Below, in pieces: positions 46,522-62,166 of a DNA stretch of 64,000 bases. Numbering within the stretch: the stretch's first letter is position 1; each line of letters starts with the position of its first letter. A program made the translations under genes and the position numbers. The stretch comes from Sulfurospirillum sp. UCH001 (GTDB lineage: Bacteria; Campylobacterota; Campylobacteria; Campylobacterales; Sulfurospirillaceae). The DNA lies in assembly GCF_001548035.1 (NCBI RefSeq), contig NZ_AP014723.1, positions 124,001 through 188,000 on the forward strand, read 5' to 3'. Below the pieces are notes generated by a model. It ran no database searches and was not told the origin of the DNA. It saw nothing but the letters and a program-made list of their open reading frames with translations.

Positions 46522-48255
46522 TTGCAGTATTTGGTTGATTTTTTAGAGAGTAAAACGGTTCAAACATCACAAATTTATGAGCACCTGAAATGTTCTATTG
46601 ACGAAGCAAAATTTTTACAGATGATGACCAAGGAATACGTCCTTGGCAGTGTTGATATGGGTGTTGCAGATGGTTTGATCAAACTTTTTGGTGATAAAAA
46701 ATATGCCCATTTGCAACAACTCCCTTTAGTCAAAGATTTGATTGAACAAGGGTGGATTGTTCAAAACAGTTTTCTAAGTTCTAAAGTTATGGATGTGTCA
46801 AATTTGGAACTTTTGAACAGTACAGTAACACTAAGTTCCGCTTTTTTAAAACTACTAGAGGAAGGAACCCTTGAAGTAGTGTTACCAGATGTTACGCCAT
46901 ATGAAGATCATCTTGAATATTTGAAAGATCAATTTTTTCGCATCGAACTCTATCAAAAACTAAGCCAAACAAAGCATAATGCTACTGAAAATGCACCAAG
47001 CATTGGACGCCTGAAAAATAAGCTGGAGCTTTTAGAGAGTCGCATTATTGAGCGTATAAAAGTAACACAAAACGAGATTGTTGTTGAGAATATTTTTAAG
47101 GAAAATGAACTCAATCCTAAAGAGCAGCTTATTTTTCTTGCACTTCTTAAAGAAGAGTACGCTGGAGAATTTGAAAGCTTACGCGATATGAACACGCTTA
47201 TTAGTCTTATTAGCGTTGATGATTATGAGAAGATCAAAAACCGTTCTTTGTTGGAAGAGGGTTCAAAATTGATCGAAAATTTGATTATTGATTATGATGA
47301 GATGCTCAGTACTTTTGGTGGTGTGACACGAAGCTTTTTTATCTCTGAAGAAATTTTGCAGAAGATTATGCATCCTAATAAAGAGAAGAAAAGTAAAAAA
47401 ATCAAGCTTGATATGCTCATTGGTGAGCAAGAGCTTTTTGAGTTGATTGATCCAAAAACCAGCTTGGATGATGTGATTTTGCACCCTAAAACAAAAGAAG
47501 TCCTTGATAACCTACTTAAACAGATCGATAAAAATGTAGTGAAATTGCTTCGTGAATGGGGTATTAAAGAGCGTCGTAGTGGTATTGATGCAAAGATCAT
47601 ACTGTATGGACCTCCTGGTACTGGTAAAACGATGACAGCTCTTTCGCTCGCAAAATCAATGAAAAAAAGAGTGCTTAGTTTTGATTGTTCAAAAATTCTC
47701 TCAAAATATGTAGGTGAGAGTGAAAAAAATGTACGCAATATTTTTGATACGTATAAAGAATTGTGTAAAAAGACAAAAAGCGAACCTTTATTGCTTTTAA
47801 ATGAAGCGGATCAATTTTTAAGTGCACGCTCGACTGATAGCGGAGCGAGTGCTGATAAAATGCATAATCAAATGCAAAATATTTTTTTAGAACAGATTGA
47901 ACGTTTCGATGGACTACTTATTGCAACAACAAACCTTTTAGAGACGATAGATCCAGCTTTCTCACGTCGTTTTGATTATAAAATCGCGTTTGAAAAACCT
48001 GATTTGAAACAGCGCATAGAGCTTTGGAAAAAGTTGCTACCTGAAAATGCACAATACGAAGAGGGTTTAGATGTAGAAAAACTTGCTTCGTATCCTCTCA
48101 CAGGAGGTCAAATCAAGGTGGTACTCAAAAATACAGCGTTAAAGGTAGCGACAAAAGCGAAACCACTGTTTACGTTTGAAGATTTTAAACTCTCCATTGA
48201 TCGCGAAACTAAAGGTGCTTTTGGCGATACAAAATCTGTTGGTTTTATGAATTAA
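46522..48255 (+). CDS. AAA+ ATPase of unknown role
   Basis: 577 residues from a TTG at 46522 with AAAAGG upstream. The N-terminal half is helical and unfamiliar; the C-terminal half is an AAA+ module: Walker A GPPGTGKT, pore-loop-like KYVGESEKNVRNIF, Walker B variant LLLLNEADQF in which the expected Asp is Asn, sensor ATTNLLETIDPAFSRRFDYKI with arginine finger, and a final helical lid. It looks like a classic AAA protein (SpoVK/CbbX-like or proteasomal type) that remodels or unfolds a partner. It precedes the nuo operon by about 75 bp, but no link is proven. Confidence 0.8.
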   Translation: MQYLVDFLESKTVQTSQIYEHLKCSIDEAKFLQMMTKEYVLGSVDMGVADGLIKLFGDKKYAHLQQLPLVKDLIEQGWIVQNSFLSSKVMDVSNLELLNSTVTLSSAFLKLLEEGTLEVVLPDVTPYEDHLEYLKDQFFRIELYQKLSQTKHNATENAPSIGRLKNKLELLESRIIERIKVTQNEIVVENIFKENELNPKEQLIFLALLKEEYAGEFESLRDMNTLISLISVDDYEKIKNRSLLEEGSKLIENLIIDYDEMLSTFGGVTRSFFISEEILQKIMHPNKEKKSKKIKLDMLIGEQELFELIDPKTSLDDVILHPKTKEVLDNLLKQIDKNVVKLLREWGIKERRSGIDAKIILYGPPGTGKTMTALSLAKSMKKRVLSFDCSKILSKYVGESEKNVRNIFDTYKELCKKTKSEPLLLLNEADQFLSARSTDSGASADKMHNQMQNIFLEQIERFDGLLIATTNLLETIDPAFSRRFDYKIAFEKPDLKQRIELWKKLLPENAQYEEGLDVEKLASYPLTGGQIKVVLKNTALKVATKAKPLFTFEDFKLSIDRETKGAFGDTKSVGFMN

Positions 48256-48331
48256 GATCTTAACAGGTCTTTTTGAGCGTTTAGTTTGAACGTTCAGATG
48301 GATTTGTTGTATAAAAAATGAAGGAATGATG

Positions 48332-48730
48332 ATGACCTCTTTGTCGCATATGGATTTTGCCCATCCTTATTTTGGAGCTTTTTTCCTCCTCGCATTTGGT
48401 GCAGTTGTATTTTATGGCATCACTGTATTGGCTCGTGTTGTCAGTCGAAGTATGGCACGTCTCGATACAGAAAAGCTTAAACTCACAATTTATGAGTGTG
48501 GACCAGAAGTAACCAAGCAGCCCAATAAAATTTCTGCACACTTTTATCTCTTTGCAGTTTTGTTTATTTTGTTTGATGTAGAGATTATCTTTATGTTTCC
48601 ATGGGCAGTTGATTTTAAAGTTCTTGGTATGTTTGGTTTTGTTGAGATGATTTTATTTGTGATTATTCTGACAATAGGTTTTGTATATGCATGGAAAAAA
48701 GGAGCGCTCGAATGGCACAGCATAAGATAA
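48332..48730 (+). CDS. nuoA: NADH-quinone oxidoreductase subunit A
   Basis: 132 residues from the third of three consecutive ATGs (48326, 48329, 48332), chosen by the distance from AAGGA. Three membrane helices, with [34 protein letters not shown] (by position) typical of NuoA. Small membrane subunit at the junction of the arms of complex I. First gene of the operon; a TATAAA-like box lies just upstream at 48310-48315. Overlaps nuoB by 19 bp. Confidence 0.93.
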
Positions 48731-49221
48731 ATTATCTTCAAGAAGCAGGGCTTCCTGTGGCACTCACCACAGTGGATAAACTGGTTCAATGGGGTAGAAG
48801 TAACTCGTTGTGGCCGTTAACCTATGGACTTGCGTGTTGTGCAATTGAGATGATGGCTACGGGTGCGAGTCGTTATGACTTTGATCGTTTTGGAACAATT
48901 TTTAGAGCAAGCCCTAGACAAGCCGATGTGATTGTTATTGCTGGAACATTAACAAAAAAACATGCACCATTTATGCGTCGCTTGTACGATCAAATGCCTG
49001 ATCCAAAATGGGTCATTAGTATGGGAAGCTGTGCCAATACCGGAGGAATGTTTAACACTTATGCAACGGTTCAAGGAGCGGATCGTATCGTTCCTGTTGA
49101 TATTTATCTTCCAGGGTGTGCGCCTCGTCCAGAAACCCTTCAATACGCATTGATGCTTTTGCAAAAGAAAATTCGCACTGAAAAAGCATCACGAAGACTT
49201 GCTCCTAAAAGGTTGGTATGA
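48712..49221 (+). CDS. nuoB: NADH-quinone oxidoreductase subunit B
   Basis: 169 residues from ATG 48712 after GGAGCG; an earlier in-frame ATG lies within nuoA. Ligands of iron-sulfur cluster N2: the adjacent cysteines in [19 protein letters not shown] and [10 protein letters not shown]2 is the last cluster before quinone. The ORF end overlaps the nuoC start by 4 bp. Confidence 0.97.
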
Positions 49222-50018
49222 TGAGAAGTTATAGCGATAAACAAAACGTTCAAAAAAAAGCGTATTACAATGACCGCTATTTTGTAGCACCCCAGATTCC
49301 TAAAGAAGATGTAGAAACGGATGAAATTTTTGCCAATGATGTATCGGTTTTAAAAACAAAGTTTGAGATTAAAGAAGCCTATATTCAAAGAGGGCAGTTA
49401 GTTATTTATATTGACCCAAGAGACAATGTAAGCGTATTGCAAACTCTTAGAGATGAACTTTCGTATAATTTTTTAAGTGAACACAGTGCGATTGATTGGT
49501 TAGCGAAAAGTGGTGAGTTTGAGATTTTGTACCAACTGCTTTCAACCTCAAAGCGTAAACGCCTTCGTGTAAAATGTTTTATTCAAGAAAAAGAAGTACT
49601 TAAAAGCGTCATTGGTGTTTATAAAAGTGCCGATTGGGCAGAGCGTGAGATGTATGATATGTTTGGTGTTATCATTAGCGGACATCCGTATATGAAACGT
49701 ATCTTAATGCCTGATGATTGGTATGATCATCCACTTCGTAAAACGTATCCATTGCATGGTGACGAAGTAGCACAATGGTATGAAATCGATAAAATTTTTG
49801 GCAAAGAGTACCGCGATATCATAGGACCAGAAGAAAGAGATAGCGCACGTGTCGATGAGAGCGATACCTATCGTTTTGCACGCCTTAATCACGAAGTTCC
49901 TTTTGGTGCAGAACCTAGTAGCGAAAAAACAGTCACTGACTACCAAGAAGAAGGTGGAGTGTTTATCGTGAAAAAGCTCAAAAAAGAAGATGCCAAAATT
50001 GTGAAAGAGAGATACTAA
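49218..50018 (+). CDS. nuoC: NADH-quinone oxidoreductase subunit C
   Basis: 266 residues. The 30-kDa subunit signature is present in [29 protein letters not shown], with [13 protein letters not shown] after it. An extended N-terminal and C-terminal region make it longer than bare 30-kDa domains. Not fused to NuoD, unlike E. coli. Starts on the ATGATG overlapping the nuoB stop. Confidence 0.95.
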
Positions 50019-50020
50019 TC

Positions 50021-51247
50021 ATGCAAAAAGTCAATCGTCTAAAACCGTTTTTTGAAAACATTGCTTTTGAGCGTGAAGACAATCATATGATCGTTAACTT
50101 TGGTCCTCAACACCCTAGTGCACATGGTCAGCTTCGTCTCATTTTAGAACTCGATGGCGAAAAAGTGAGCAAAGCAACTCCAGATATTGGCTATCTACAT
50201 CGTGGTATGGAGAAAATGGCTGAAAATATGATCTATAATGAGTTTTTGCCAACCACCGATAGAATGGACTACATTGCAGCAACAGCCAATAACTACGGCT
50301 TTGCCCTAGCAGTTGAAAAGCTCATTGGTCTTGAAGTGCCTCGTCGTGCGAAGGTCATTCGTATGATGCTACTAGAACTCAATCGTATCTCTTCTCATCT
50401 TTTCTGGCTTGCAACGCATGCCCTTGATGTGGGTGCTATGACCATTTTCCTTTACGCATTTAGGGAGAGAGAGTATACACTTGATTTGATTGAAGACTAC
50501 TGTGGTGCACGTTTAACACACTCTTCGGTCAGAATCGGTGGTGTTCCACTTGATTTGCCCAAAGGTTGGATAGACAATCTTAATAAATTTATTAATCATT
50601 TACCACTTGATATCGCTGATTACGAAGGCTTGCTAGATCAAAACCGTATTTGGAAAATGCGTTTAGAAGATGTGGGTGTGGTAACACCTGAGCAAGCACA
50701 AAGCTGGGGCTGTTCTGGTCCTATGCTAAGAGGTTCTGGCATCGCATGGGATATTCGTAAAGAAGAACCATATGAGCTTTATGATGAAGTCGAGTTTGAT
50801 GTACCTGTGAGTACAACCTGTGATAGTTATGGAAGGTATAAGCTTCATATGGAAGAGATGCGACAAAGCGTTCGCATTTTAAAACAACTGATTCCAATGT
50901 ATGCCCAAACATCACCTGAAATTATGGCACATGCACCTGGGTACATTTCCGCTCCAAAAGAGCAAATCATGACACAAAATTATTCATTGATGCAACACTT
51001 TGTTTTAGTAACACAAGGTATGCGTCCACCAGTGGGCGAAGTATATGTGGCAACGGAATCGCCAAAAGGAGAATTAGGTTTTTACATTAATTCACAAGGT
51101 GATCCGTACCCATACAGATTAAAACTTAGAGCACCTAGTTTCTTCCATACAGCAATTTTGCAAGAAATTTTAGTAGGTGAATACTTAGCTGACGTTGTAG
51201 CAATCATTGGTAATGCTAACATCGTTTTTGGCGAAATTGACAGATAG
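50021..51247 (+). CDS. nuoD: NADH-quinone oxidoreductase subunit D
   Basis: 408 residues, 49-kDa subunit. [14 protein letters not shown] contains the histidine and other residues lining the quinone pocket; [13 protein letters not shown] and [14 protein letters not shown] are also conserved. Lies 2 bp after nuoC. Confidence 0.97.
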
Positions 51248-51255
51248 GAGAGGCA

Positions 51256-51495
51256 ATGCAACGTTATGACTTACGCCATTTGGGCGATGATTTTTACGGG
51301 CGTATGCTTGAGATTATTGATGAGACTTCTATGGGCGAAGTATCTATCTTTATGTTTGAGATTGGTGATTTCTCTCCTGTTCAAAAAAGTGCAGATGTGA
51401 TTAAAGAAGCAGGTTGGACATTGATGAATTCGTTGAAGTTCAATGAAGCAGACTGGACGATTGTCGTAAAAAAAGTGAAAAGTGAAGTAGAGTAA
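51256..51495 (+). CDS. Small NuoE-position subunit of epsilon-type complex I
   Basis: 79 residues in the place where nuoE normally lies. It has no cysteine at all, so it cannot carry the [2Fe-2S] cluster N1a, and it is half the length of NuoE. Conserved-looking core: FYGRMLEIIDETSMGEVSIFMFEIG. Equivalent small proteins occupy this position in Campylobacter and Helicobacter. It presumably helps dock an electron donor other than NADH. AGGAGAGG precedes the ATG; the stop overlaps the next start by 1 bp. Confidence 0.88.
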   Translation: MQRYDLRHLGDDFYGRMLEIIDETSMGEVSIFMFEIGDFSPVQKSADVIKEAGWTLMNSLKFNEADWTIVVKKVKSEVE

Positions 51496-52340
51496 TGGCA
51501 AAGAAGCAATTTATAGAATCTTTAAATCAATCACGTTGTGATCAATTTGCTTTTACCTGTAAAGGATTTGATCTTATTTTGTGTGTAGGAACATTTCCAT
51601 CACGCCATGACACAGCTCTGTTAGAGAGTTTGCGTGAGAGTAACGCAAAAGTAGTCTATCTGTTCACAATGGAAGATCAAGCACTCGTTGAAAAAAGTAC
51701 GTTTTTTAGTCGTTATGAAGTAGGTTCTGAAGAGGGTATTTTTGCGCTTTTAGCCAAAAGTTTTCTTGCGCAATCCAAACTTCCAGAAACCATTAAAAAT
51801 TACTTTGAAGCGTTAGATGAAGGCTATATTAGCGCAGAGAGTAATCTTGGTGAAGAAGAGATCGAAGAGATCGAAGCATTGTATCAAGAAGCTCAAAATG
51901 TACTCATTGTCTTAGGTGATGATTTGATCTCTCATCCAAGAGCCTCAAATATAGCGCATCTTGCAGGCTTAATTGCAATGTACGGTAAAGCAAAATTATG
52001 TATTGTCGGTGCAACGCCTGAGATGGTAGTTGAAACAAAAAATGAAACTGTTTTAGAAGACGTTGAAGATATAAAAAGTTTTGATGGTGTTGTGGTCTAT
52101 CAATGCCCTGCAATGAGCAAGGATGAAGAGAATTTACTGATAGGCTCAGCCCAGTTTCAAATGGCAGCCAAAGTTCAAAGTGGCGACAAAATAAATGTTA
52201 CTATCAACCAAGAGGTCTATCCTCGTACCTTTGTACGTGATGATAGTTTAAAAGGCGTGATCGCTTTAATGTCGTGTGCAAAAGCGGATTCTAGCTATCC
52301 CTACCATGTAGTAAAAATAGTGAAGGCAGAAGTGCAATGA
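51495..52340 (+). CDS. NuoF-position subunit, resembling the C-terminal half of NuoG
   Basis: 281 residues where nuoF is expected, but there is no NADH/FMN glycine-rich motif and no [4Fe-4S] cysteine set. Instead the sequence resembles NuoG from its own operon: residues 135-160 match NuoG 538-563 at 14 of 26 positions by eye (both with DL..HPRA.NIA), residues 25-90 align with NuoG about 377-448, and the end (GSAQFQMAAKVQSGDKINVTI, part) aligns with the NuoG C-terminal region. I infer a duplication of the molybdopterin-oxidoreductase-like domain. Known as the NuoF replacement of this phylum. It is followed by nuoG with a 4-bp overlap. Confidence 0.82.
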   Translation: MAKKQFIESLNQSRCDQFAFTCKGFDLILCVGTFPSRHDTALLESLRESNAKVVYLFTMEDQALVEKSTFFSRYEVGSEEGIFALLAKSFLAQSKLPETIKNYFEALDEGYISAESNLGEEEIEEIEALYQEAQNVLIVLGDDLISHPRASNIAHLAGLIAMYGKAKLCIVGATPEMVVETKNETVLEDVEDIKSFDGVVVYQCPAMSKDEENLLIGSAQFQMAAKVQSGDKINVTINQEVYPRTFVRDDSLKGVIALMSCAKADSSYPYHVVKIVKAEVQ

Positions 52341-54814
52341 GCGATGTTTTAATAACCATAGATGGAAAACAGTGTAAAGCAACGGAGGGTGAGTACGTTT
52401 TAGGTGTTGCGCGCAGAAATGGTATCTTTATTCCAGCGCTTTGTTATGTCACCAACTGTTCACCAACCTTAGCGTGTCGTTTGTGTTTGGTGGATATTGA
52501 TGGTAAGCGTGCTTACAGCTGTAATGCTCGCGCCAAAGAGGGTATGAGCGTCATCACTAAAACGGAAGAGATCGAAAAAGAGCGCAGAGCGATCATGGAG
52601 ATCTATGACATCAACCATCCATTAGAGTGTGGTGTGTGTGACCAAAGTGGTGAATGTGAACTCCAAAACTACACCTTACATATGGGTGTCGATAGTCAAC
52701 ATCACTGCATTGCTGATACGCATCGCCCGACTAAAAATTGGGGTAAAATCCACTACGATTCTTCTTTGTGTATTGTCTGTGAGCGTTGTGTCACCGTTTG
52801 TAAAGATATGATCGGTGAATCAGCGCTTAAAACAGTTCCTAGAGGGGGCGCTGAGCTTGATAAATCATGGAAAGATAAAACCGAAAAAGACGCATACGCG
52901 ATGTGGAACAAGCTCCAAAAATCCATCATTGGAGTGGCAAGTGGTGCTGAAACACTCGATTGTACGCAGTGTGGTGAATGTACAGCAGTTTGTCCTGTAG
53001 GCGCACTCGTTGGAACAGATTTTCAATACACATCCAATGCATGGGAACTTAAAAAAATCCCTGCAGCAAATCCACACAGTTCAGACTGTTCACTTCTTTT
53101 TTATGATGTGAAGCATACAAGTATTAGCAATCCTGAACCTAAAATTTATCGTGTCAGTAGCGAACATAACTATGCACCTCTACATACCGCGGCACGTTAT
53201 GGTTTTGACTTCCACAATGAAGTTGCAGGTAAAGATGAGGCTGCCTTTAATAAAGCCGTTGAGCTTTTAAAAACCAAAGTTGATACCATTGCTTTTGACA
53301 GCTATATCACCAATGAAGAGGCGCTCATCCTTCAAAAGCTCAAAGAGAAGTTTGGTTATAAGCTCGTGAATGTTGATGCTAAAGTGTATCAAGATTTCCT
53401 CAAGAATTTTGCAAGTACATCAGGAAAAAGCTTATACAGTGGCAATTTAGAGAGTATTCGCTCTTCTAATTTTGTTGTCAGTTTTGGTACAGCGATTAAA
53501 ACCGATAGCCCAAATGCAGGCTATGCGATGAACAATGCGATTGGTATGAACAAAGGTGCGGGGGTATATCTCCATCCTGTGGCTGATCCTATTGTTTCGG
53601 CATATTCTAAAAATTTACTCAGTGTTACCCATAACATTGGTACAGAAGAAGCCATTGCTTATCTGTTGCTCGATCTTTTTGGTGACAAAGAGGCAATGCC
53701 TAAGAGTGTTGTAGACTACTTAGCATCTTTTCACACCATAGAGAAGAAAACTATCCAAGAGAGCGTCAAAGAAGAAGTCAAAGAGATGGTGAAAGACGAA
53801 GAGAGTGGTGAAGAAAAAGAAGTGGTGAACACCATTACAAAACTGGTAGATAAAGAGATTGAAATCGACACCAATGCTTTAGTCAGTATGATTGGAGCAG
53901 AAGCGGACTTAATCGAGAAAATCACAAAACTGCTAGATAAAAAAGATAGCTTTAGTCTCATCGTTGGTGAAGATCTTTACACACATCCAAGAGCTGAAAA
54001 TATTGCAAAACTTTTAGGCTTGATTGAGCGTTTTACAGCGTTTTCTTTAGTCATCATCCCATCACGCACCAATACACTGGGTGTTTCACTCATCTGTGAT
54101 TTGGATGATGCCAAGGGCAATTTTACGCTCGGCTATAACGTCAAGGGTGACTTTACACTCAGTAGCTTAGGTAAGGGTGATCTCTCTATGCCTGCTCTGA
54201 ACCAACAAGAGGGAACATTCTCTTCCATGAACAAGCGCGTTGTTCCTACCAATGCGGCATTGCATTTCAAAGGCTATTGTCTGAATGACATCGCGAATGC
54301 TCTTGGATTGGAAGCAGAGTGGACGATTGATTATACGCCGTACTTACCAAGTGAGAAAGGCTTTAAGAACGAGAAGTTTGATAATTTGCCAAATCGTTAT
54401 GAAAACGATGGTACAGAAAATAGAGGGTATGCACTTTCCTCTTTCAGTGTTACAAGCCATGATGAGGTTGAGCCAATAGCGCCTTTCTCAACAAAAGAGG
54501 GCGATGTAGTCTATAGAGCTAACCCTGTACATCAATTTAGCGCCTTTACAAACAAAGCACATCAGCTTAATGAAGCAGGAGCGCTTTATGTTTCATCTGC
54601 ATTCTTGGAAGCAAAAAATCTTCAAGATGGTTCTGTTGTTACCGTTGAAAATGAGGCAGGTGAGAAACTGGTAATTGCACTCAAAGAAGAGAAAATGATC
54701 GATGGACTGATCGCTTATCTTCCAACGTTTGATACCAAAATCGACACCACACCATTCTTTAAAGATGGGTATCGATTTGCGCATGTAGTGATTAAAGGAG
54801 TTTCTCATGTTTGA
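52337..54814 (+). CDS. nuoG: NADH-quinone oxidoreductase subunit G
   Basis: 825 residues. N-terminal [2Fe-2S] domain (cysteines 36, 47, 50, 62, cluster N1b), His94/Cys98/101/107 for N5, and two ferredoxin-like Cys sets (145/148/151/155 and 209/212/215/219) for N4 and possibly an extra cluster. The remainder is a diverged molybdopterin-oxidoreductase fold without a cofactor. Residues about 470-510 form a Lys/Glu-rich insert. C-terminal half resembles the NuoF-position protein. It carries electrons inward from whatever docks on the peripheral arm. Overlaps nuoH by 8 bp. Confidence 0.95.
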   Translation: MSDVLITIDGKQCKATEGEYVLGVARRNGIFIPALCYVTNCSPTLACRLCLVDIDGKRAYSCNARAKEGMSVITKTEEIEKERRAIMEIYDINHPLECGVCDQSGECELQNYTLHMGVDSQHHCIADTHRPTKNWGKIHYDSSLCIVCERCVTVCKDMIGESALKTVPRGGAELDKSWKDKTEKDAYAMWNKLQKSIIGVASGAETLDCTQCGECTAVCPVGALVGTDFQYTSNAWELKKIPAANPHSSDCSLLFYDVKHTSISNPEPKIYRVSSEHNYAPLHTAARYGFDFHNEVAGKDEAAFNKAVELLKTKVDTIAFDSYITNEEALILQKLKEKFGYKLVNVDAKVYQDFLKNFASTSGKSLYSGNLESIRSSNFVVSFGTAIKTDSPNAGYAMNNAIGMNKGAGVYLHPVADPIVSAYSKNLLSVTHNIGTEEAIAYLLLDLFGDKEAMPKSVVDYLASFHTIEKKTIQESVKEEVKEMVKDEESGEEKEVVNTITKLVDKEIEIDTNALVSMIGAEADLIEKITKLLDKKDSFSLIVGEDLYTHPRAENIAKLLGLIERFTAFSLVIIPSRTNTLGVSLICDLDDAKGNFTLGYNVKGDFTLSSLGKGDLSMPALNQQEGTFSSMNKRVVPTNAALHFKGYCLNDIANALGLEAEWTIDYTPYLPSEKGFKNEKFDNLPNRYENDGTENRGYALSSFSVTSHDEVEPIAPFSTKEGDVVYRANPVHQFSAFTNKAHQLNEAGALYVSSAFLEAKNLQDGSVVTVENEAGEKLVIALKEEKMIDGLIAYLPTFDTKIDTTPFFKDGYRFAHVVIKGVSHV

Positions 54815-55799
54815 AACCGCTGTCATTATTGAAACCGTTGTCAAAGCGGTAGTGGTTGTAGCTGTTGTTGCAGGTATGGCAGGCTTTGCAACGTTTATTG
54901 AACGAAAAGTGCTCGCTTTTATGCAACGCCGTCTTGGACCGATGCACGTTGGACCGTATGGTTTATTACAACTCGCAGCTGATGGTATCAAGCTCTTCAC
55001 AAAAGAAGATATTGTCCCTCAAAATGCGGTGAAACCAATCTTTATGATTGCCCCAGTTATTGCTGCAGTCACTGCATTTGTTGCGATGGCAGCAGTGCCG
55101 TATTTTCCAGAATTCACACTCTTTGGCTATGTGATTCACCCCATTATCTCCGATATTAACGTAGCACTTCTGTATGTCATGGGTGTTGCATCGGTGGGTA
55201 TTTATGGACCACTGCTTGCGGGTATGAGTAGTGCTAATAAATGGTCACTTTTAGGTGCAGCACGTGCGGTTGTACAGATGCTTTCCTTTGAAGTGGTCAG
55301 TGGTTTGTCCGTCCTTGCACCGATTATGATGATAGGTTCACTTTCATTGATTGATATTAACGACTACCAAAATGGTGGTGTAACACATTGGCTTGTTTGG
55401 AAACAACCTTTAGCATTTATTTTATTTGCAATGGCAGGATTTATGGAGACCAACCGTGCTCCTTTTGATACCGTAGAGTTTGAAGCAGAAGTTGTTGCAG
55501 GTTATGCAACAGAGTATTCAGGTATGCGTTGGGGTCTCTTTTTCATCGGTGAGTATGCCAATATGATTACGATTTCTGTCCTTGTAAGCATCATTTTTAT
55601 GGGTGGTTATAATCCAATCTGGTTTATTCCTGGTGCTATTGCAATGTTGTTAAAAGTTTCATTGTGGGTATTCCTTTTCTTGTGGGTGAGAGCAGCATGG
55701 CCACATATCAGACCTGATCAGTTGATGTGGGTCTGTTGGAAAGTATTAATGCCTTTAGCAGTAATCAATATTTTGATTACTGGCTTTGTGCTAATTTAG
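54807..55799 (+). CDS. nuoH: NADH-quinone oxidoreductase subunit H
   Basis: 330 residues, eight membrane helices. ERKVLAFMQRRLGPMHVGPYG and ETNRAPFDTVEFEAEVVAGYATEYSGMRW, with the charged E-channel residues, are conserved. NuoH forms the quinone tunnel and the first proton path. The start lies within the last codons of nuoG. Confidence 0.97.
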   Translation: MFETAVIIETVVKAVVVVAVVAGMAGFATFIERKVLAFMQRRLGPMHVGPYGLLQLAADGIKLFTKEDIVPQNAVKPIFMIAPVIAAVTAFVAMAAVPYFPEFTLFGYVIHPIISDINVALLYVMGVASVGIYGPLLAGMSSANKWSLLGAARAVVQMLSFEVVSGLSVLAPIMMIGSLSLIDINDYQNGGVTHWLVWKQPLAFILFAMAGFMETNRAPFDTVEFEAEVVAGYATEYSGMRWGLFFIGEYANMITISVLVSIIFMGGYNPIWFIPGAIAMLLKVSLWVFLFLWVRAAWPHIRPDQLMWVCWKVLMPLAVINILITGFVLI

Positions 55800-55808
55800 G
55801 AGGCAGGG

Positions 55809-56423
55809 ATGGAATTAAAAGATTTTAAACAACGTAACATTGCCCCTGGTTACATCTTTTTTGATGGTGAAAAAAAACCAGAAAATGGATGGCAAGCGTT
55901 TAAAAAAGTTGTAAGACGAACGCTTAAAAGTGAGCTTTTCGTAGGACTTTGGATTGTACTAAGAGAGATGATTCGTTTTGATATTCATACGATTCGGTAT
56001 CCAGCAGAAAAATTTGAAATGAGCCCAAGATATAGAGCAATTCACCGTTTGCTTCGTTTATTTGAAAGCGGTAATGAGAGATGTATCGGGTGTGGATTGT
56101 GCGAAAAAATTTGTATTGCTAATTGTATTCGCATGGAAACACATGTGGATGAAAAAAGCCGTAAAGTTGTTAGTGAATATAGCATTAACTTTGGTCGTTG
56201 TATCTTCTGTGGGTATTGTGCAGAAGTGTGTCCAGAACTTGCTATTGTACATGGGGTGGAGTATGAAAATGCTAGCGAGCAGAGAGCCCATTTTGGCCTT
56301 AAAGACGATATGCTTACTCCTCTTGATACTTTTAAAGCCAAACAACAAAAAGAGTTTCCAGGTTTTGGTGCATTAAGTGATAATGCTGACGAAAACGTGA
56401 AACAAACACCATTAGCGTATTGA
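55809..56423 (+). CDS. nuoI: NADH-quinone oxidoreductase subunit I
   Basis: 204 residues. Two ferredoxin-type motifs, [15 protein letters not shown] and [16 protein letters not shown], bind clusters N6a and N6b. In the first motif the usual CP after the fourth cysteine is CI. N-terminal region is extended and basic. GGAGGCAGGG precedes the start. Confidence 0.97.
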
Positions 56424-56430
56424 GGTTGCC

Positions 56431-56985
56431 ATGTTTGAAATTATTGCATTTTATATTTTTGCCGCACTCACCATTGGTATGTTTGCGATTGTGGTTATGA
56501 GTCGTAATGCACTCTATTCCATGAGCGCATTAGCAGGCGGAATGATCTTTATCTCTGGCTTCTTCTTTATTTTAGATGCAGAGTTTTTAGGGGTTGTTCA
56601 AATTGTCGTTTATTCAGGCGCAATTATGGCTCTGTACGCGTTTGGTATGATGTTTTTTGATACAACAAGAGATGTCAGTGAAAAAATGCGTTCTAAAAAA
56701 ATTGCCTATACGCTTTCTGTCATTAGTGCCATTTTAGTGGTTGCGATTTTATGCGCTCCTCTGGTTTCGGAAAATATTCAAGCTTCGTATCCAAGCATGG
56801 ATAATGTGGGCAATGTACAGATGATCGGAATTGTTTTATTTACAAAATATTTGGTACCGTTTGAGTTAGCGGCTATTATGCTCTTAGTTGCCATGATTGC
56901 GGGCATTGTGTTGGCAAGTAAAAAAATGGATGAATATTTAGCGATTGAAGATGATGAAGTAGAAGAAGCAAAGGAGGTCAAATGA
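56431..56985 (+). CDS. nuoJ: NADH-quinone oxidoreductase subunit J
   Basis: 184 residues, five membrane helices with the pi-bulge region VQIVVYSGAIMALYAFGMMFF. Membrane arm subunit. The C-terminal tail is acidic (EDDEVEEAKEVK). Its stop overlaps the nuoK start by 4 bp. Confidence 0.95.
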   Translation: MFEIIAFYIFAALTIGMFAIVVMSRNALYSMSALAGGMIFISGFFFILDAEFLGVVQIVVYSGAIMALYAFGMMFFDTTRDVSEKMRSKKIAYTLSVISAILVVAILCAPLVSENIQASYPSMDNVGNVQMIGIVLFTKYLVPFELAAIMLLVAMIAGIVLASKKMDEYLAIEDDEVEEAKEVK

Positions 56986-57284
56986 TTACCTTAACTCATT
57001 ACCTTATTTTAACAGGTATCTTATTTTCTATCGGACTTGTAGGTGTTATGCGACGTACAAATCTTTTGATGCTCTTTTTCTCAACTGAAATTTTACTCAA
57101 TGCTATTAATATTGGTTTTGTTGCAGTTTCTAAATACTACGGGGATCTTACGGGGCAAATGTTTGCCTTTTTTATCATTGCAGTAGCGGCAAGTGAAGTC
57201 GCTGTTGGTCTTGGACTTCTTATTTTATGGTACAAGCGCAATGGTTCTGTTGATCTTAATAGCCTTCAGATGATGAAAGGGTAA
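56982..57284 (+). CDS. nuoK: NADH-quinone oxidoreductase subunit K
   Basis: 100 residues, three helices, with the conserved glutamates in LLMLFFSTEILLNAINIGFVA and AASEVAVGLGLLIL. MrpC-like antiporter-related subunit in the membrane arm. GTG-free ATG start overlapping nuoJ. Confidence 0.97.
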   Translation: MITLTHYLILTGILFSIGLVGVMRRTNLLMLFFSTEILLNAINIGFVAVSKYYGDLTGQMFAFFIIAVAASEVAVGLGLLILWYKRNGSVDLNSLQMMKG

Positions 57285-57286
57285 GC

Positions 57287-59143
57287 ATGGAAAAATATCT
57301 TTATACAGCACTTTTTGCACCTTTGGTAAGCTCTTTGTTTGTGGCCATTTTTGCGGCACGCCCGAAGATGCTTTTTACAGGTATTGTGGCTTCTATGCTT
57401 ATTGCGATTTCAATGATTTCATCGTTTGTGTTGCTCATTGATGTCAATACCTATGGACCGTTACATGTCACGATGATGGATTGGATCGCAGCAGGTAACT
57501 TGGAGATTCCATTTGGCTTTGTTGTTGATGAAGTCTCTGTTATTATGATGGTTACGGTAACACTCGTTTCAACGATTGTTCATATCTATTCTATCGGTTA
57601 TATGGACCATGATAAGAGCTTTAACCGCTTCTTCTCGTACCTTTCAGCGTTTGTTTTCTCAATGATGATTTTGGTCATGAGTGACAACTTTGTAGGTCTT
57701 TTCATTGGATGGGAAGGTGTGGGGCTTTGTTCATGGCTACTGATTGGTTTTTGGTACCACAAACACTCCGCTTCGTGGGCAGCAAATGAAGCGTTTATTA
57801 TGAACCGTATCGCCGATCTTGGCATGCTTATGGGACTTTTTCTTATTTACTGGAATGTGGGCTCTTTCCAATACGATGATGTTTTCGCAAGTGTTAAAGG
57901 TATGGATCCTGTACTTCTTGCTACCATCGGTATGTTTTTATTTATCGGTGCAATGGGTAAATCAGCACAATTTCCACTCCATACATGGCTTGCAGATGCG
58001 ATGGAAGGTCCAACGCCTGTTTCAGCGCTTATTCATGCCGCAACCATGGTAACTGCGGGTGTTTATCTTGTCATTCGTTGTGGAGAACTGTATAGCCTTA
58101 TCCCAGAAGTGGGCTTTGCGATTGCTTCTCTTGGAGCTTTTGTAGCCGTGTTTGCTGCTTCTATGGCACTCGTCAATAACGATCTTAAACGTATTATTGC
58201 TTATTCTACACTCTCACAATTAGGCTATATGTTTGTTGCAGCAGGACTTGGTGCGTATTGGATTGCACTGTTCCACCTTATGACACATGCTTTTTTTAAA
58301 TCATTGCTATTCCTTGGTGCTGGTAACGTTATGCACGCGATGCATGATGAACTGAACATTAAAAAGATGGGTGGACTTTATGGTTCAATGAAAGCAACCG
58401 CTATTTTGATGAGTGTGGCTTCTGTTGCATTAGCTGGAATTTATCCGTTTGCAGGCTTCTTTTCTAAAGATAAGATCTTGGAAGTTGCCTTTAATGAGGG
58501 AGCGTATTTTCTGTGGTTTGCACTTTTCATTGGTGCTGGTTTGACAGCGTTTTATAGCTTCCGTTTAGTCATGCTCGTTTTCTTTGGCGAAAAAGAGTAT
58601 GTGAAGTATGGTTTGCATCCACATGAAGCACAACCGTTTGTTATTTATGCACTGCTTCCGTTAGGACTTTTAGCGGTTATCGCAGGTTTCTTTGAACATA
58701 CTTTTGAAGGATTTGTTACACGTCTTTTAGCCCAATATGAAATTCACATTGAGCATGGAACAGAAGTCCTTTTAATTGCAGGAACACTTGGAATTGCCCT
58801 AAGCGGTATAGCATTTGCCGTTTATATGTACAGACGTGGAGGTTTCCCAAAATCATGGGAGGGAAGTTTTGGTTACAAACTATTGAGTAATCAGTACTAC
58901 ATTCCAAAATTGTATGAATTGTATATTATGCGACCATTTAGTGCATTGGCAACATTTGCATGGCAAAAAATTGATACAAAAATTGTGGACTTTACCGTAG
59001 ATTTAATTGCAAGAATTATTTATTCAACAGGGCAAAATGCCAGAAAAATGCAAAGTGGAAATCTCTCTGATATGCTCAGGTGGATGATTGTAGGTATGAT
59101 CGTTTTACTTACACTTGCAATTTTTTATAGACCAATGGTGTAG
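57287..59143 (+). CDS. nuoL: NADH-quinone oxidoreductase subunit L
   Basis: 618 residues, antiporter-like proton channel at the end of the membrane arm. Conserved: FIGWEGVGLCSWLLIGFW with the key Glu, AMGKSAQFPLHTWLADAMEGPTPVSALIHAATMV with the proton-path Lys and His, and NNDLKRIIAYSTLSQLGYMF. C-terminal amphipathic helix region is present. 2 bp after nuoK. Confidence 0.97.
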   Translation: MEKYLYTALFAPLVSSLFVAIFAARPKMLFTGIVASMLIAISMISSFVLLIDVNTYGPLHVTMMDWIAAGNLEIPFGFVVDEVSVIMMVTVTLVSTIVHIYSIGYMDHDKSFNRFFSYLSAFVFSMMILVMSDNFVGLFIGWEGVGLCSWLLIGFWYHKHSASWAANEAFIMNRIADLGMLMGLFLIYWNVGSFQYDDVFASVKGMDPVLLATIGMFLFIGAMGKSAQFPLHTWLADAMEGPTPVSALIHAATMVTAGVYLVIRCGELYSLIPEVGFAIASLGAFVAVFAASMALVNNDLKRIIAYSTLSQLGYMFVAAGLGAYWIALFHLMTHAFFKSLLFLGAGNVMHAMHDELNIKKMGGLYGSMKATAILMSVASVALAGIYPFAGFFSKDKILEVAFNEGAYFLWFALFIGAGLTAFYSFRLVMLVFFGEKEYVKYGLHPHEAQPFVIYALLPLGLLAVIAGFFEHTFEGFVTRLLAQYEIHIEHGTEVLLIAGTLGIALSGIAFAVYMYRRGGFPKSWEGSFGYKLLSNQYYIPKLYELYIMRPFSALATFAWQKIDTKIVDFTVDLIARIIYSTGQNARKMQSGNLSDMLRWMIVGMIVLLTLAIFYRPMV

Positions 59144-59152
59144 GGGTAGGAA

Positions 59153-60679
59153 ATGGAGCATATTTTATCACTTCTTGTATTTTTTCCAGCAATGGCAGGA
59201 CTCTTAGGCTTCTTGGTCACAAAAGAGAGTATTAGAGCCTATGGTATTAGCGTTACAGCTATTGAATTTTTTCTCTCTATTGTTTTATGGATTGGATACG
59301 ATAGTAACAATGCAGGATACCAGTTTGTTGAGTATTATCCTTTTATTCCAAGCTATGGTATGAGTTATTACCTTGGTGTAGATGGCATTTCACTCTTCTT
59401 GGTTATTTTGTCTACTTTTATCACAATGATTTCATTTATTGCTCTGAGCATTAAAAACGAAATTAAAAACTTAATCATCTCTGTTTTATTCCTTGAGATG
59501 ACAATGGTGGGTGTATTCTTAATTTTAGATGTTATCTGGTTCTATGCGTTTTGGGAGCTTTCATTGGTTCCAATGCTTTATATTATCGGAGCATGGGGTA
59601 GTGCGAATCGTATGTATGCGTCTATCAAGTTTTTCCTCTACACCTTCGCAGGTTCAGTGTTGATGTTAGTGGGTATCTTGTATATGGGCTTTTTATACCA
59701 TGAAGCGACAGGCATTTGGAGCTTTGCATTGCCTGATTGGTATTTGTTGCAGTTACCTTATTCAACGCAATTGTGGCTCTTTGGAGCATTTTTCTTAGCA
59801 TTTGCAATTAAAGTACCAATGTTTCCATTTCATACGTGGTTACCATATGCTCACGGTCAAGCGCCAACGATAGGTTCTATCATTCTTGCAGCGGTGCTTT
59901 TAAAAATGGGTAGCTATGGTTTTGTGCGTTTTTCACTCCCACTTTTCCCTGATGCATCTGTTTATTTTCTGATTCCTGTAGCGGTTATTTGTATTATCAT
60001 GGTCATTTACGCTGCGATGATAGCCTATGCACAAGAAGATATGAAACAGGTCATTGCGTATAGTTCGATTTCGCACATGGGTATTGTTGTGCTTGGAACC
60101 TTTGCTATGAATAGCGAAGGTATCACAGGTTCTATCTTTTTAATGCTAAGTCACGGAATTGTGAGTGGTGCACTCTTTATGTTGGTAGGGGTGATCTATG
60201 ATCGCCGTCATACAAAAATGATGAAAGACTTTGGAGGTTTAGCCTCTGTTATGCCTAATTTTGCAACAGTGTATGGCATTATGCTGATGGCTTCTGTAGG
60301 CCTTCCTCTCACCATAGGATTTGTGGGTGAGTTCTTATCTCTAGTAGGTTTTTACCGCATTAATTGGGTTATGGCACTCCTTGCAGGAACAGGTATTATT
60401 TTAGGTGCTGTTTACATGTTAGTGCTTTATAAAAAATCATTTTTTGGTGCAGTAGTACATGAAGAGAATAAAACACTTCCAGATTTGAATGCAAAAGAGC
60501 TTACAGCATTGATTCCACTGGTCGCCCTTGTTGCACTTTTGGGTGTTTATCCAAAACCAGTACTCAGTACTATCGATATGAGTGTTCAAAAAATGCTCGT
60601 TCTGATGGAGCAAAAAGCGGTTGAACAAAGTACAAAAGATCTGATTATTAAAGCCAATACCATAGGAGGAACACACTAA
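59153..60679 (+). CDS. nuoM: NADH-quinone oxidoreductase subunit M
   Basis: 508 residues, antiporter-like. FYAFWELSLVPMLYIIGAWG with the key Glu, FAIKVPMFPFHTWLPYAHGQAPTIGSIILAAVLLKMG and EDMKQVIAYSSISHMG are conserved. Its last base is shared with the nuoN start (TAATG). Confidence 0.97.
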   Translation: MEHILSLLVFFPAMAGLLGFLVTKESIRAYGISVTAIEFFLSIVLWIGYDSNNAGYQFVEYYPFIPSYGMSYYLGVDGISLFLVILSTFITMISFIALSIKNEIKNLIISVLFLEMTMVGVFLILDVIWFYAFWELSLVPMLYIIGAWGSANRMYASIKFFLYTFAGSVLMLVGILYMGFLYHEATGIWSFALPDWYLLQLPYSTQLWLFGAFFLAFAIKVPMFPFHTWLPYAHGQAPTIGSIILAAVLLKMGSYGFVRFSLPLFPDASVYFLIPVAVICIIMVIYAAMIAYAQEDMKQVIAYSSISHMGIVVLGTFAMNSEGITGSIFLMLSHGIVSGALFMLVGVIYDRRHTKMMKDFGGLASVMPNFATVYGIMLMASVGLPLTIGFVGEFLSLVGFYRINWVMALLAGTGIILGAVYMLVLYKKSFFGAVVHEENKTLPDLNAKELTALIPLVALVALLGVYPKPVLSTIDMSVQKMLVLMEQKAVEQSTKDLIIKANTIGGTH

Positions 60680-62166
60680 TGTTAGAGCCTATTTCGATTG
60701 ATGTCGTAAGCCTCAATCTCCCATCACTCCTTCCTATGGCAATTTTAAGCGTAGGAGCACTTTCTGTTATTTGTGCTGATTTGGCAGTAAAAGGGTTGAA
60801 TCGTAGTTTTTTAACGATGATTACAGTACTTTTTATTATTTTAGATTTTGGTGCAGTCATCGGATATAACGGACCATCACGTGGATTTTTTGATGTCCTT
60901 CTTGTCGATGGGATTGCTACTATTGCGCAAGTGATTATTCTTGTTGCTTCAGCATTTTTCTTGCCGTTGTCTCTTAGTCATCGTCACTTTAGAGAATTTA
61001 GAATGGCAGAGTTTTATGCGCTCTTTATGTTTATGATTGTGGGCTTTCAGTTTATGGTCGTAAGTGACAATCTGATTTTAATTTTTATTGGGTTGGAAAC
61101 ATCAAGCCTTGCCCTTTACACATTGATCGCCATGCATAATCGTGCAAAAGCATTTGAAGCAGCAATTAAGTACTTTACTATGGGAGCATTGGCAGCTGGT
61201 TTTTATGGAATGTCAGCGCTTATTTTTTACGCACTTACGGGAAGTGTTGAAATTTATCAAATTGAAAAAGTTTTAATGCAACGTCATTTTGAGCCTCTTT
61301 TAGGTGTGCTTGCTGCAACAGTATTTATGCTCGGAGCGCTTGGTTTCAAACTCTCTTTGGTTCCATCACACACATGGACACCAGATGTGTATGAAGGAAG
61401 TTCAGCACCACTTGCAGGCTATATGTCTGTTGTTCCAAAAATTGCAGGTTTTGTCGTTGCAATGCGTCTGTTTGAGATGCTCGTTTTTTCTGGCGTAGTG
61501 TGGTTAGAACATATTTTATACGTTGCGGTTGTTCTTACAATGACACTAGCAAACCTAACAGCATTGGTTCAAGAAGATGTAAAGAGAATGTTAGCATTTA
61601 GCTCTATTGCACATGCTGGATTTATGATGGCAGCTATTCTGATTGGTACAACACAAGCCAATACAGCACTTTTCTTGTACTGGACACTCTTTATGTTCAC
61701 CAACTTAGGTGCGTTTACAATGCTCTGGATCGTAAGACACCGTAAAAATCTTTGGGATGAGCGTTATCAGCATCCGTATACTAAGTTTTCAGGACTTGTA
61801 AAAATCATGCCAACAACTGCGACTATTATGGGTATTTTTATGTTTGCTCTTGCAGGTATGCCACCATTTTCTGTCTTTTGGGGTAAGCTTTATCTTATCA
61901 GTGCAGCCATTAACAGTGAATTCATTTTTCTCGCAGTCATCATTGCCTTTAATAGTGCTATTGCCGTGTATTATTACATGAAATTGGTGATTTATATGTT
62001 TTTAAAAGAACCAACAACAGCAGATGCAAGGCTATATGCTACGAATGCATCAACACCTTTAAAAGTCATTGTTGGTTTTGCCGCAATTATCACGATTTTT
62101 GCTATTGTATTTGTAGAGCCTCTTTTAACTATTATTACCAAATATGTAACTGCTAGCGGTTTTTAA
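60679..62166 (+). CDS. nuoN: NADH-quinone oxidoreductase subunit N
   Basis: 495 residues, antiporter-like. FIGLETSSLALYTLIA, GFKLSLVPSHTWTPDVYEGSSAPLAGYMSVVPK and EDVKRMLAFSSIAHAGFM carry the proton-path residues. Last gene of the operon, followed at once by a terminator. Confidence 0.97.
   Translation: MLEPISIDVVSLNLPSLLPMAILSVGALSVICADLAVKGLNRSFLTMITVLFIILDFGAVIGYNGPSRGFFDVLLVDGIATIAQVIILVASAFFLPLSLSHRHFREFRMAEFYALFMFMIVGFQFMVVSDNLILIFIGLETSSLALYTLIAMHNRAKAFEAAIKYFTMGALAAGFYGMSALIFYALTGSVEIYQIEKVLMQRHFEPLLGVLAATVFMLGALGFKLSLVPSHTWTPDVYEGSSAPLAGYMSVVPKIAGFVVAMRLFEMLVFSGVVWLEHILYVAVVLTMTLANLTALVQEDVKRMLAFSSIAHAGFMMAAILIGTTQANTALFLYWTLFMFTNLGAFTMLWIVRHRKNLWDERYQHPYTKFSGLVKIMPTTATIMGIFMFALAGMPPFSVFWGKLYLISAAINSEFIFLAVIIAFNSAIAVYYYMKLVIYMFLKEPTTADARLYATNASTPLKVIVGFAAIITIFAIVFVEPLLTIITKYVTASGF

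Follow-up and report, generated by a model that had tools for sequence, protein, structure and literature searches.

We analysed a 64,000-nucleotide stretch of DNA (hereafter the window) from Sulfurospirillum sp. UCH001 (NZ_AP014723.1, positions 124,001 to 188,000), part of a closed 2.6-Mb genome (G000), using 298 Campylobacterota genomes as the comparison set for searches. In the window there is an epsilon-type nuo operon for complex I with the gene order A-B-C-D-Ec-Fc-G-H...N. Fc, the subject of this report, is a 281-amino-acid protein that occupies the nuoF slot (51495..52340) and is the stump of a second NuoG, designated G1. Ec, the gene in the NuoE position (51256..51495), encodes a 79-amino-acid protein that matches Pfam family PF16514 (E = 1e-37). 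The two genes are preceded by nuoA-D (48326..51247) and followed by nuoG (52337..54814) and nuoH-N (54807..62166); these and all other features of the window given below lie on the forward strand. The nuoG gene encodes a protein of 825 amino acids, designated G2, with an N-terminal iron-sulfur (Fe-S) half and a C-terminal molybdo-oxidoreductase-like half; the region homologous to Fc spans about residues 345-822 (53369..54802). The replacement genes in the NuoE and NuoF slots were named nuoXY in a review (PMC6682613), with Fc at the Cj1574c/HP1265 ('nuoY') position, and the positional orthologues of Ec and Fc in C. jejuni are Cj1575c and Cj1574c, respectively (PMC4178425).

A sequence-only reading of the window had paired Fc residues 135-160 (51897..51974) with NuoG residues 538-563 at 14 of 26 positions. 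This count was exact; with 300 shuffled NuoGs, no ungapped window of 26 residues gave more than 11 identities. The flanking strings quoted alongside it were all present, in the same order in Fc and NuoG. In BLASTP, Fc matched the neighbouring NuoG with E = 5e-9 over Fc residues 112-171, and the NCBIfam model for epsilon-type NuoG (PRK08493) matched Fc at 2e-20 in three stretches. Employing hhalign with a 57-protein profile, we aligned Fc to the G2 family over residues 6-279 (P = 99.7%, E = 1e-26); the controls, seven unrelated families taken from the same loci, stayed at P < 0.5%. Clearly, the homology of Fc to NuoG extends from end to end. Of the features that define NuoG, the N-terminal [2Fe-2S] and [4Fe-4S] cluster domains are absent from Fc and the C-terminal molybdo-oxidoreductase-like domain is present. 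In a Pfam scan of Fc, no family reached the cut-off and no NADH/flavin mononucleotide (FMN)-binding, N3 or Fe-S domain was found; the six cysteines (residues 15, 22, 30, 169, 204 and 261) are not arranged in a cluster motif, nor is any of them a conserved residue. The lack of NADH, FMN and Fe-S motifs noticed from the letters alone was thereby confirmed.

The fold of Fc was predicted with AlphaFold2 from 57 sequences (predicted local distance difference test score, pLDDT, 93.4; predicted template modelling score, pTM, 0.91). In the VIA-align superposition, 275 residues of the model matched residues 138-693 of E. coli FdhF (formate dehydrogenase H) with a root-mean-square deviation of 3.0 and Z of 23.6; the match covered domains II-IV of FdhF, and the Fe-S domain I was missing. 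Foldseek matches of the model included Thermus Nqo3 and E. coli NuoG. Searching the sequences of the Protein Data Bank with Fc by phmmer, we found nothing significant; the solved relatives were found by fold alone. As modelled, Fc is a miniature molybdo-oxidoreductase fold consisting of domains II-IV without the Fe-S domain.

Searching the 298 genomes with Fc revealed two operon layouts, A-B-C-D-Ec-Fc-G-H and A-B-C-D-Ec-F'-G1-G2-H. In the second layout, found in many Campylobacterota, two full-length NuoG proteins, G1 (~750 amino acids) and G2 (~820 amino acids), stand in tandem behind F' (~670 amino acids), a NuoF/GltD chimera whose N-terminal part is the NuoF N3 cluster domain (PF10589) and whose remainder is a GltD-like NAD(P)H/FAD oxidoreductase. 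One example of F' lies at L031:9075-11108 (reverse strand); the same position is taken by F' in 28 other loci, where it always precedes a full-length G1 and replaces NuoF. F' and full-length G1 co-occurred in 29/29 loci, and F' was present in 0/109 Fc loci. Some operons were unusual. At L178:3857-6643 (Helicobacteraceae genus g43), an F' of 928 amino acids, longer than usual, precedes a divergent G1. At L166:472-5975, the operon reads D-Ec-F'-G1-H without G2, so that its single NuoG either predates the duplication or is what remained once G2 had been lost. A metagenome-assembled genome (MAG) labelled Nitratifractor (G207) carries two epsilon-type operons (L045 and L046), one of them near Sulfurospirillum (NuoD 86% identical); this is probably a mixed bin.

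Fc was much closer to G1 than to G2. Identity to the C-terminal half of G1 was ~40%, with typical E values of 1e-20 to 1e-30, whereas matches to G2 were weak (typically 1e-4 to 1e-10). By hhalign, Fc and G1 were collinear over residues 6-281 with a single internal deletion of ~130 amino acids (P = 100%, E = 2e-67). Residues E75, D108, G110, E115, E120-122, F221 and K226 are common to Fc and G1 but not shared by G2. They fall in three places. Fc residues 74-85 (YEVGSEEGIFAL, 51714..51749) form a G1/Fc-specific motif whose E75 is invariant in Fc, including Fc encoded outside nuo operons (orphan Fc), and in G1, and is found in 6% of G2. A second, acidic G1/Fc-specific motif comprises residues 107-124 (LDEGYISAESNLGEEEIE, 51813..51866), with D108 and G110 invariant and E115 and E120-122 nearly so. 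In the C-terminal beta domain, residues 221-226 (FQMAAK, 52155..52172) include F221, which is invariant, and K226, which reaches 93% among Fc and G1 proteins and is not conserved in G2. The affinity of Fc for G1, its weak likeness to G2 and the G1-only residues indicate that Fc is a remnant of the other NuoG.

We then compared the region shared by Fc, G1 and G2 across Campylobacterota in a maximum-likelihood tree, in which Fc and G1 formed a clade apart from G2 (98/96). Sulfurimonas Fc formed a clade of its own (100/100) nested within Sulfurimonas G1 (97/82), and two Helicobacteraceae G1 sequences grouped with Helicobacteraceae Fc (100/99). Such nesting means that G1 was truncated at least three times independently; a single truncation event was rejected on the same grounds. 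The NuoD tree agrees, its starred branches forcing at least six changes of state. Alignment, trees, fold and gene order together established that Fc is a G1 that has lost its Fe-S half and an internal segment of ~130 amino acids, and not a half-copy of the neighbouring NuoG. The earlier proposal of a tandem copy of the C-terminal region of NuoG was therefore right as to descent from NuoG, not NuoF, through a tandem copy, but the copied unit was a full-length NuoG (G1), truncated later and several times. Pfam does give no family for Fc, and the fold is common to the whole superfamily, as would be the case if Fc were an independent molybdo-oxidoreductase-like protein unrelated to G1, or a derivative of NuoF. 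The probability of either is negligible: the profile match to G1, the G1-specific motif and the nesting inside G1 already refute an unrelated or NuoF-derived protein, no NuoF domain was detected in the Pfam scan, and the NuoF-derived protein of relatives, F', is a separate gene. From the 29/29 and 0/109 distributions, F' probably had its docking site on the G1 Fe-S half, the two then being lost as a unit.

Fc is also found where the rest of the operon is not. Ec was present in 242 of the 298 genomes and absent from 56. In 47 of these 56, an Fc open reading frame (ORF) was encoded outside any epsilon-type operon (profile E values 1e-30 to 1e-86); a 48th match, in a fragmented genome with G1 (G198), was left out of the count. 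Profile searches found no NuoA of any type and no true NuoN in 20 of the 47, the best NuoN-search matches (1e-19 to 1e-26) being read as hydrogenase-type ORFs, and some NuoA in the other 27. Fc therefore does not occur solely with complex I, as an obligate subunit would.

The gene order around orphan Fc recorded how it came about (taxon labels were deduced from gene content and from relatives that have names). In Campylobacter lineage f3/g6, the arrangement racemase-[nuoA-N]-tetratricopeptide repeat (TPR) protein (pflA-like) corresponds to racemase-Fc-TPR protein, and in a second Campylobacter lineage ABC transporter-[nuo]-TPR protein (pflA-like) corresponds to ABC transporter-Fc-TPR protein. 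Similarly, [nuo]-TPR protein (pflA-like) became Fc-TPR protein in Helicobacteraceae genus g30. In C. jejuni, the position of this TPR protein at the flank of nuo is that of pflA. In Arcobacteraceae, ATPase-[nuo]-mqnD-murB became ATPase-Fc-mqnD-murB, for example in Aliarcobacter cryaerophilus LMG 9065 (L174); the ATPase is the orthologue of a 577-amino-acid AAA ATPase upstream of nuoA in the window (46522..48255), and it has stayed next to Fc in Aliarcobacter although the operon is gone. Thus, in two Campylobacter lineages, in Helicobacter and in Aliarcobacter, the parts of the nuo operon to either side of Fc were deleted, and Fc itself stands intact between the operon's former neighbours, under purifying selection. 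Its dN/dS was 0.12-0.17 in Campylobacter and 0.28-0.45 in Arcobacteraceae, and E75, D108, G110, E115, E120, G198, F221, G254 and Y268 were present in 13/13 orphan Fc proteins.

An orphan Fc could be a functionless leftover, or be kept merely as the neighbour of genes that cannot be deleted; it does sit at the former nuo locus, and the eight Ec-less genomes described below lost Fc as well. We rejected a neutral leftover and consider this explanation very improbable in either form. Deletion took place on both sides of Fc, and tblastn at the former nuo loci with orphan Fc detected no remnant of any other nuo subunit; the same one of 14 genes was left in at least four lineages (the chance of Fc being the survivor four times, if survivors were random among the 14 genes, is ~1 in 38,000); and both the dN/dS range (0.12-0.45) and the invariant site speak for selection.

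A second complex I, of the standard type and having a canonical NuoF, is also encoded in the genome of the window (L091, G000:C1:440000-458000). In this complex and in those of relatives (L092-L094), NuoG is unusually short (459-527 amino acids) and is without most of the C-terminal half. Orphan Fc might accordingly serve another complex I, either by making up in trans for the C-terminal half that the short standard NuoG lacks or by joining the 11-subunit form in family f5. The length of the standard-type NuoG and the presence of some NuoA in 27 of the 47 orphan genomes fit this idea, but it is unlikely, as the 20 orphan genomes without any NuoA or NuoN retain the same invariant residues in Fc.

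Complex I without Fc was found as well. In the Helicobacter genome G197 (L180:6173-8850), Ec directly adjoins nuoG in an otherwise complete operon, with no Fc or G1, and the sole match of the Fc profile in this genome was the NuoG ORF. Not every epsilon-type complex I, therefore, has Fc or G1. Seven further genomes of the same genus gave, in profile searches only, weak Fc matches alone, mostly inside NuoG-sized ORFs. With Fc present without complex I and complex I present without Fc, the two are doubly dissociable.

The sequence-only reading suggested that Fc would be a structural cap or docking platform for the electron donor; taken as its sole role, this would mean that Fc serves only to let flavodoxin or ferredoxin pass electrons to NuoG in complex I. 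Where an operon carries Fc, it is always in the NuoF slot, and Cj1574c has been proposed to pass electrons from flavodoxin (PMC4178425). Moreover, Ec and Fc are naturally fused into proteins of 349-359 amino acids in seven loci from MAGs of insect-gut Campylobacteraceae (L131, L132, L137, L139, L141, L143 and L153), and also in L047; an AlphaFold2 model of one fusion (pLDDT 51, pTM 0.44) was too poor to define an interface. Based on operon position and these fusions, Fc of the window most likely still lies next to Ec and NuoG in the peripheral arm. As the sole role of Fc, the cap is improbable: Fc occurs in 47 genomes that have no epsilon-type complex, of which 20 show neither NuoA nor NuoN, and the full operon of G197 has no Fc. 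A protein kept in relatives that have no other complex I genes probably does something besides docking.

Apparently, Fc has a second function with no need of complex I, as suggested by its repeated selective retention, by purifying selection and by the unchanged G1-specific site in complex-I-less genomes. We think it quite probable that Fc is a G1 stump still situated in the peripheral arm and retained for this second function. In many Campylobacterota the second NuoG works beside G2 with the flavoprotein F'. Together with F', the Fe-S half of G1 was lost and the presumably cofactor-free domains II-IV were retained, and selection would keep a function that already resided in G1 before truncation. 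It is likely, in our opinion, that the presumably cofactor-free stump became a stand-alone protein in this way and that its complex-I-independent function was already present in the C-terminal half of full-length G1, which would account for the reported essentiality of Cj1574c alongside dispensable nuo genes. Weerakoon and Olson (2008) reportedly found Cj1574c to be essential and the nuo genes disruptable, which serves here as a lead only. In a transposon-directed insertion-site sequencing (TraDIS) study, Cj1575c is named as an essential gene of both C. jejuni and C. coli (PMC10077673). More speculatively, and with doubt on our side, Fc might act as an adaptor, holding a soluble redox enzyme or carrier through the acidic residues E75, D108, E115 and E120-122 together with F221, K226 and Y268.

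Several observations weigh against a retained second function or against the adaptor idea. Eight Ec-less genomes have neither Fc nor complex I, which means that not every genome needs Fc. Drafts are present among the 20 complex-I-less genomes; the closed ones include G043, G142, G168, G169, G178 and G200. The adaptor is speculative: its conserved residues are assumed to lie on one surface, and no partner emerged from the candidates checked. Long-chain flavodoxin (TIGR01752) and pyruvate/2-oxoglutarate oxidoreductase (POR/OOR, PF01855) are present in nearly all genomes checked, Fc-less ones too, which makes their co-occurrence with Fc uninformative, and the orphan genome G004 has Fc and no match to long-chain flavodoxin.

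In Campylobacter and Helicobacter, electrons enter respiration mainly through epsilon-type complex I, and the question of what replaces NuoE and NuoF in it dates back to the sequencing of the genomes of these bacteria. The replacement for NuoF can now be given an origin. The gene family itself is already known; in the literature searched, we found no account of the descent of Fc from a second full-length NuoG, of F' and the Fe-S half being lost together time and again, or of Fc persisting once complex I is gone. There is a serious chance that the stand-alone function of Fc is something new. An electron-input module, F' with the Fe-S half of the second NuoG, has been swapped and shed repeatedly. 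Natural strains that have Fc but lack complex I, and at least one of the opposite kind, make the puzzle of Cj1574c essentiality testable, and in models or structures of epsilon-type complex I, Fc should not be assumed to be solely a part of the complex.

Fc can be set beside four known systems. With formate dehydrogenase H and other Mo/W-bis(molybdopterin guanine dinucleotide) oxidoreductases, Fc shares the predicted fold of domains II-IV (Z up to 23.6 over 275 residues); unlike formate dehydrogenase H, it has no domain I Fe-S cluster, its identity is 12%, and ~550 residues are squeezed into 275. From NuoF, Fc has taken the position and no FMN, NADH or N3 features; the NuoF-derived piece is found elsewhere, in F' (PF10589 plus the GltD-like part). 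NuoG (PRK08493; Nqo3/NuoG of complex I) shares its C-terminal molybdo-oxidoreductase-like half with Fc in full-length homology, but Fc is without the Fe-S half and the internal ~130 amino acids and has the motifs of G1, not those of G2. Cj1574c/HP1265 ('nuoY'), like Fc, fills the slot between the NuoE-like gene and nuoG and by position belongs to the same family (PMC6682613); described in the literature as a nuoF replacement with a proposed flavodoxin role, it is here given its origin from the second NuoG.

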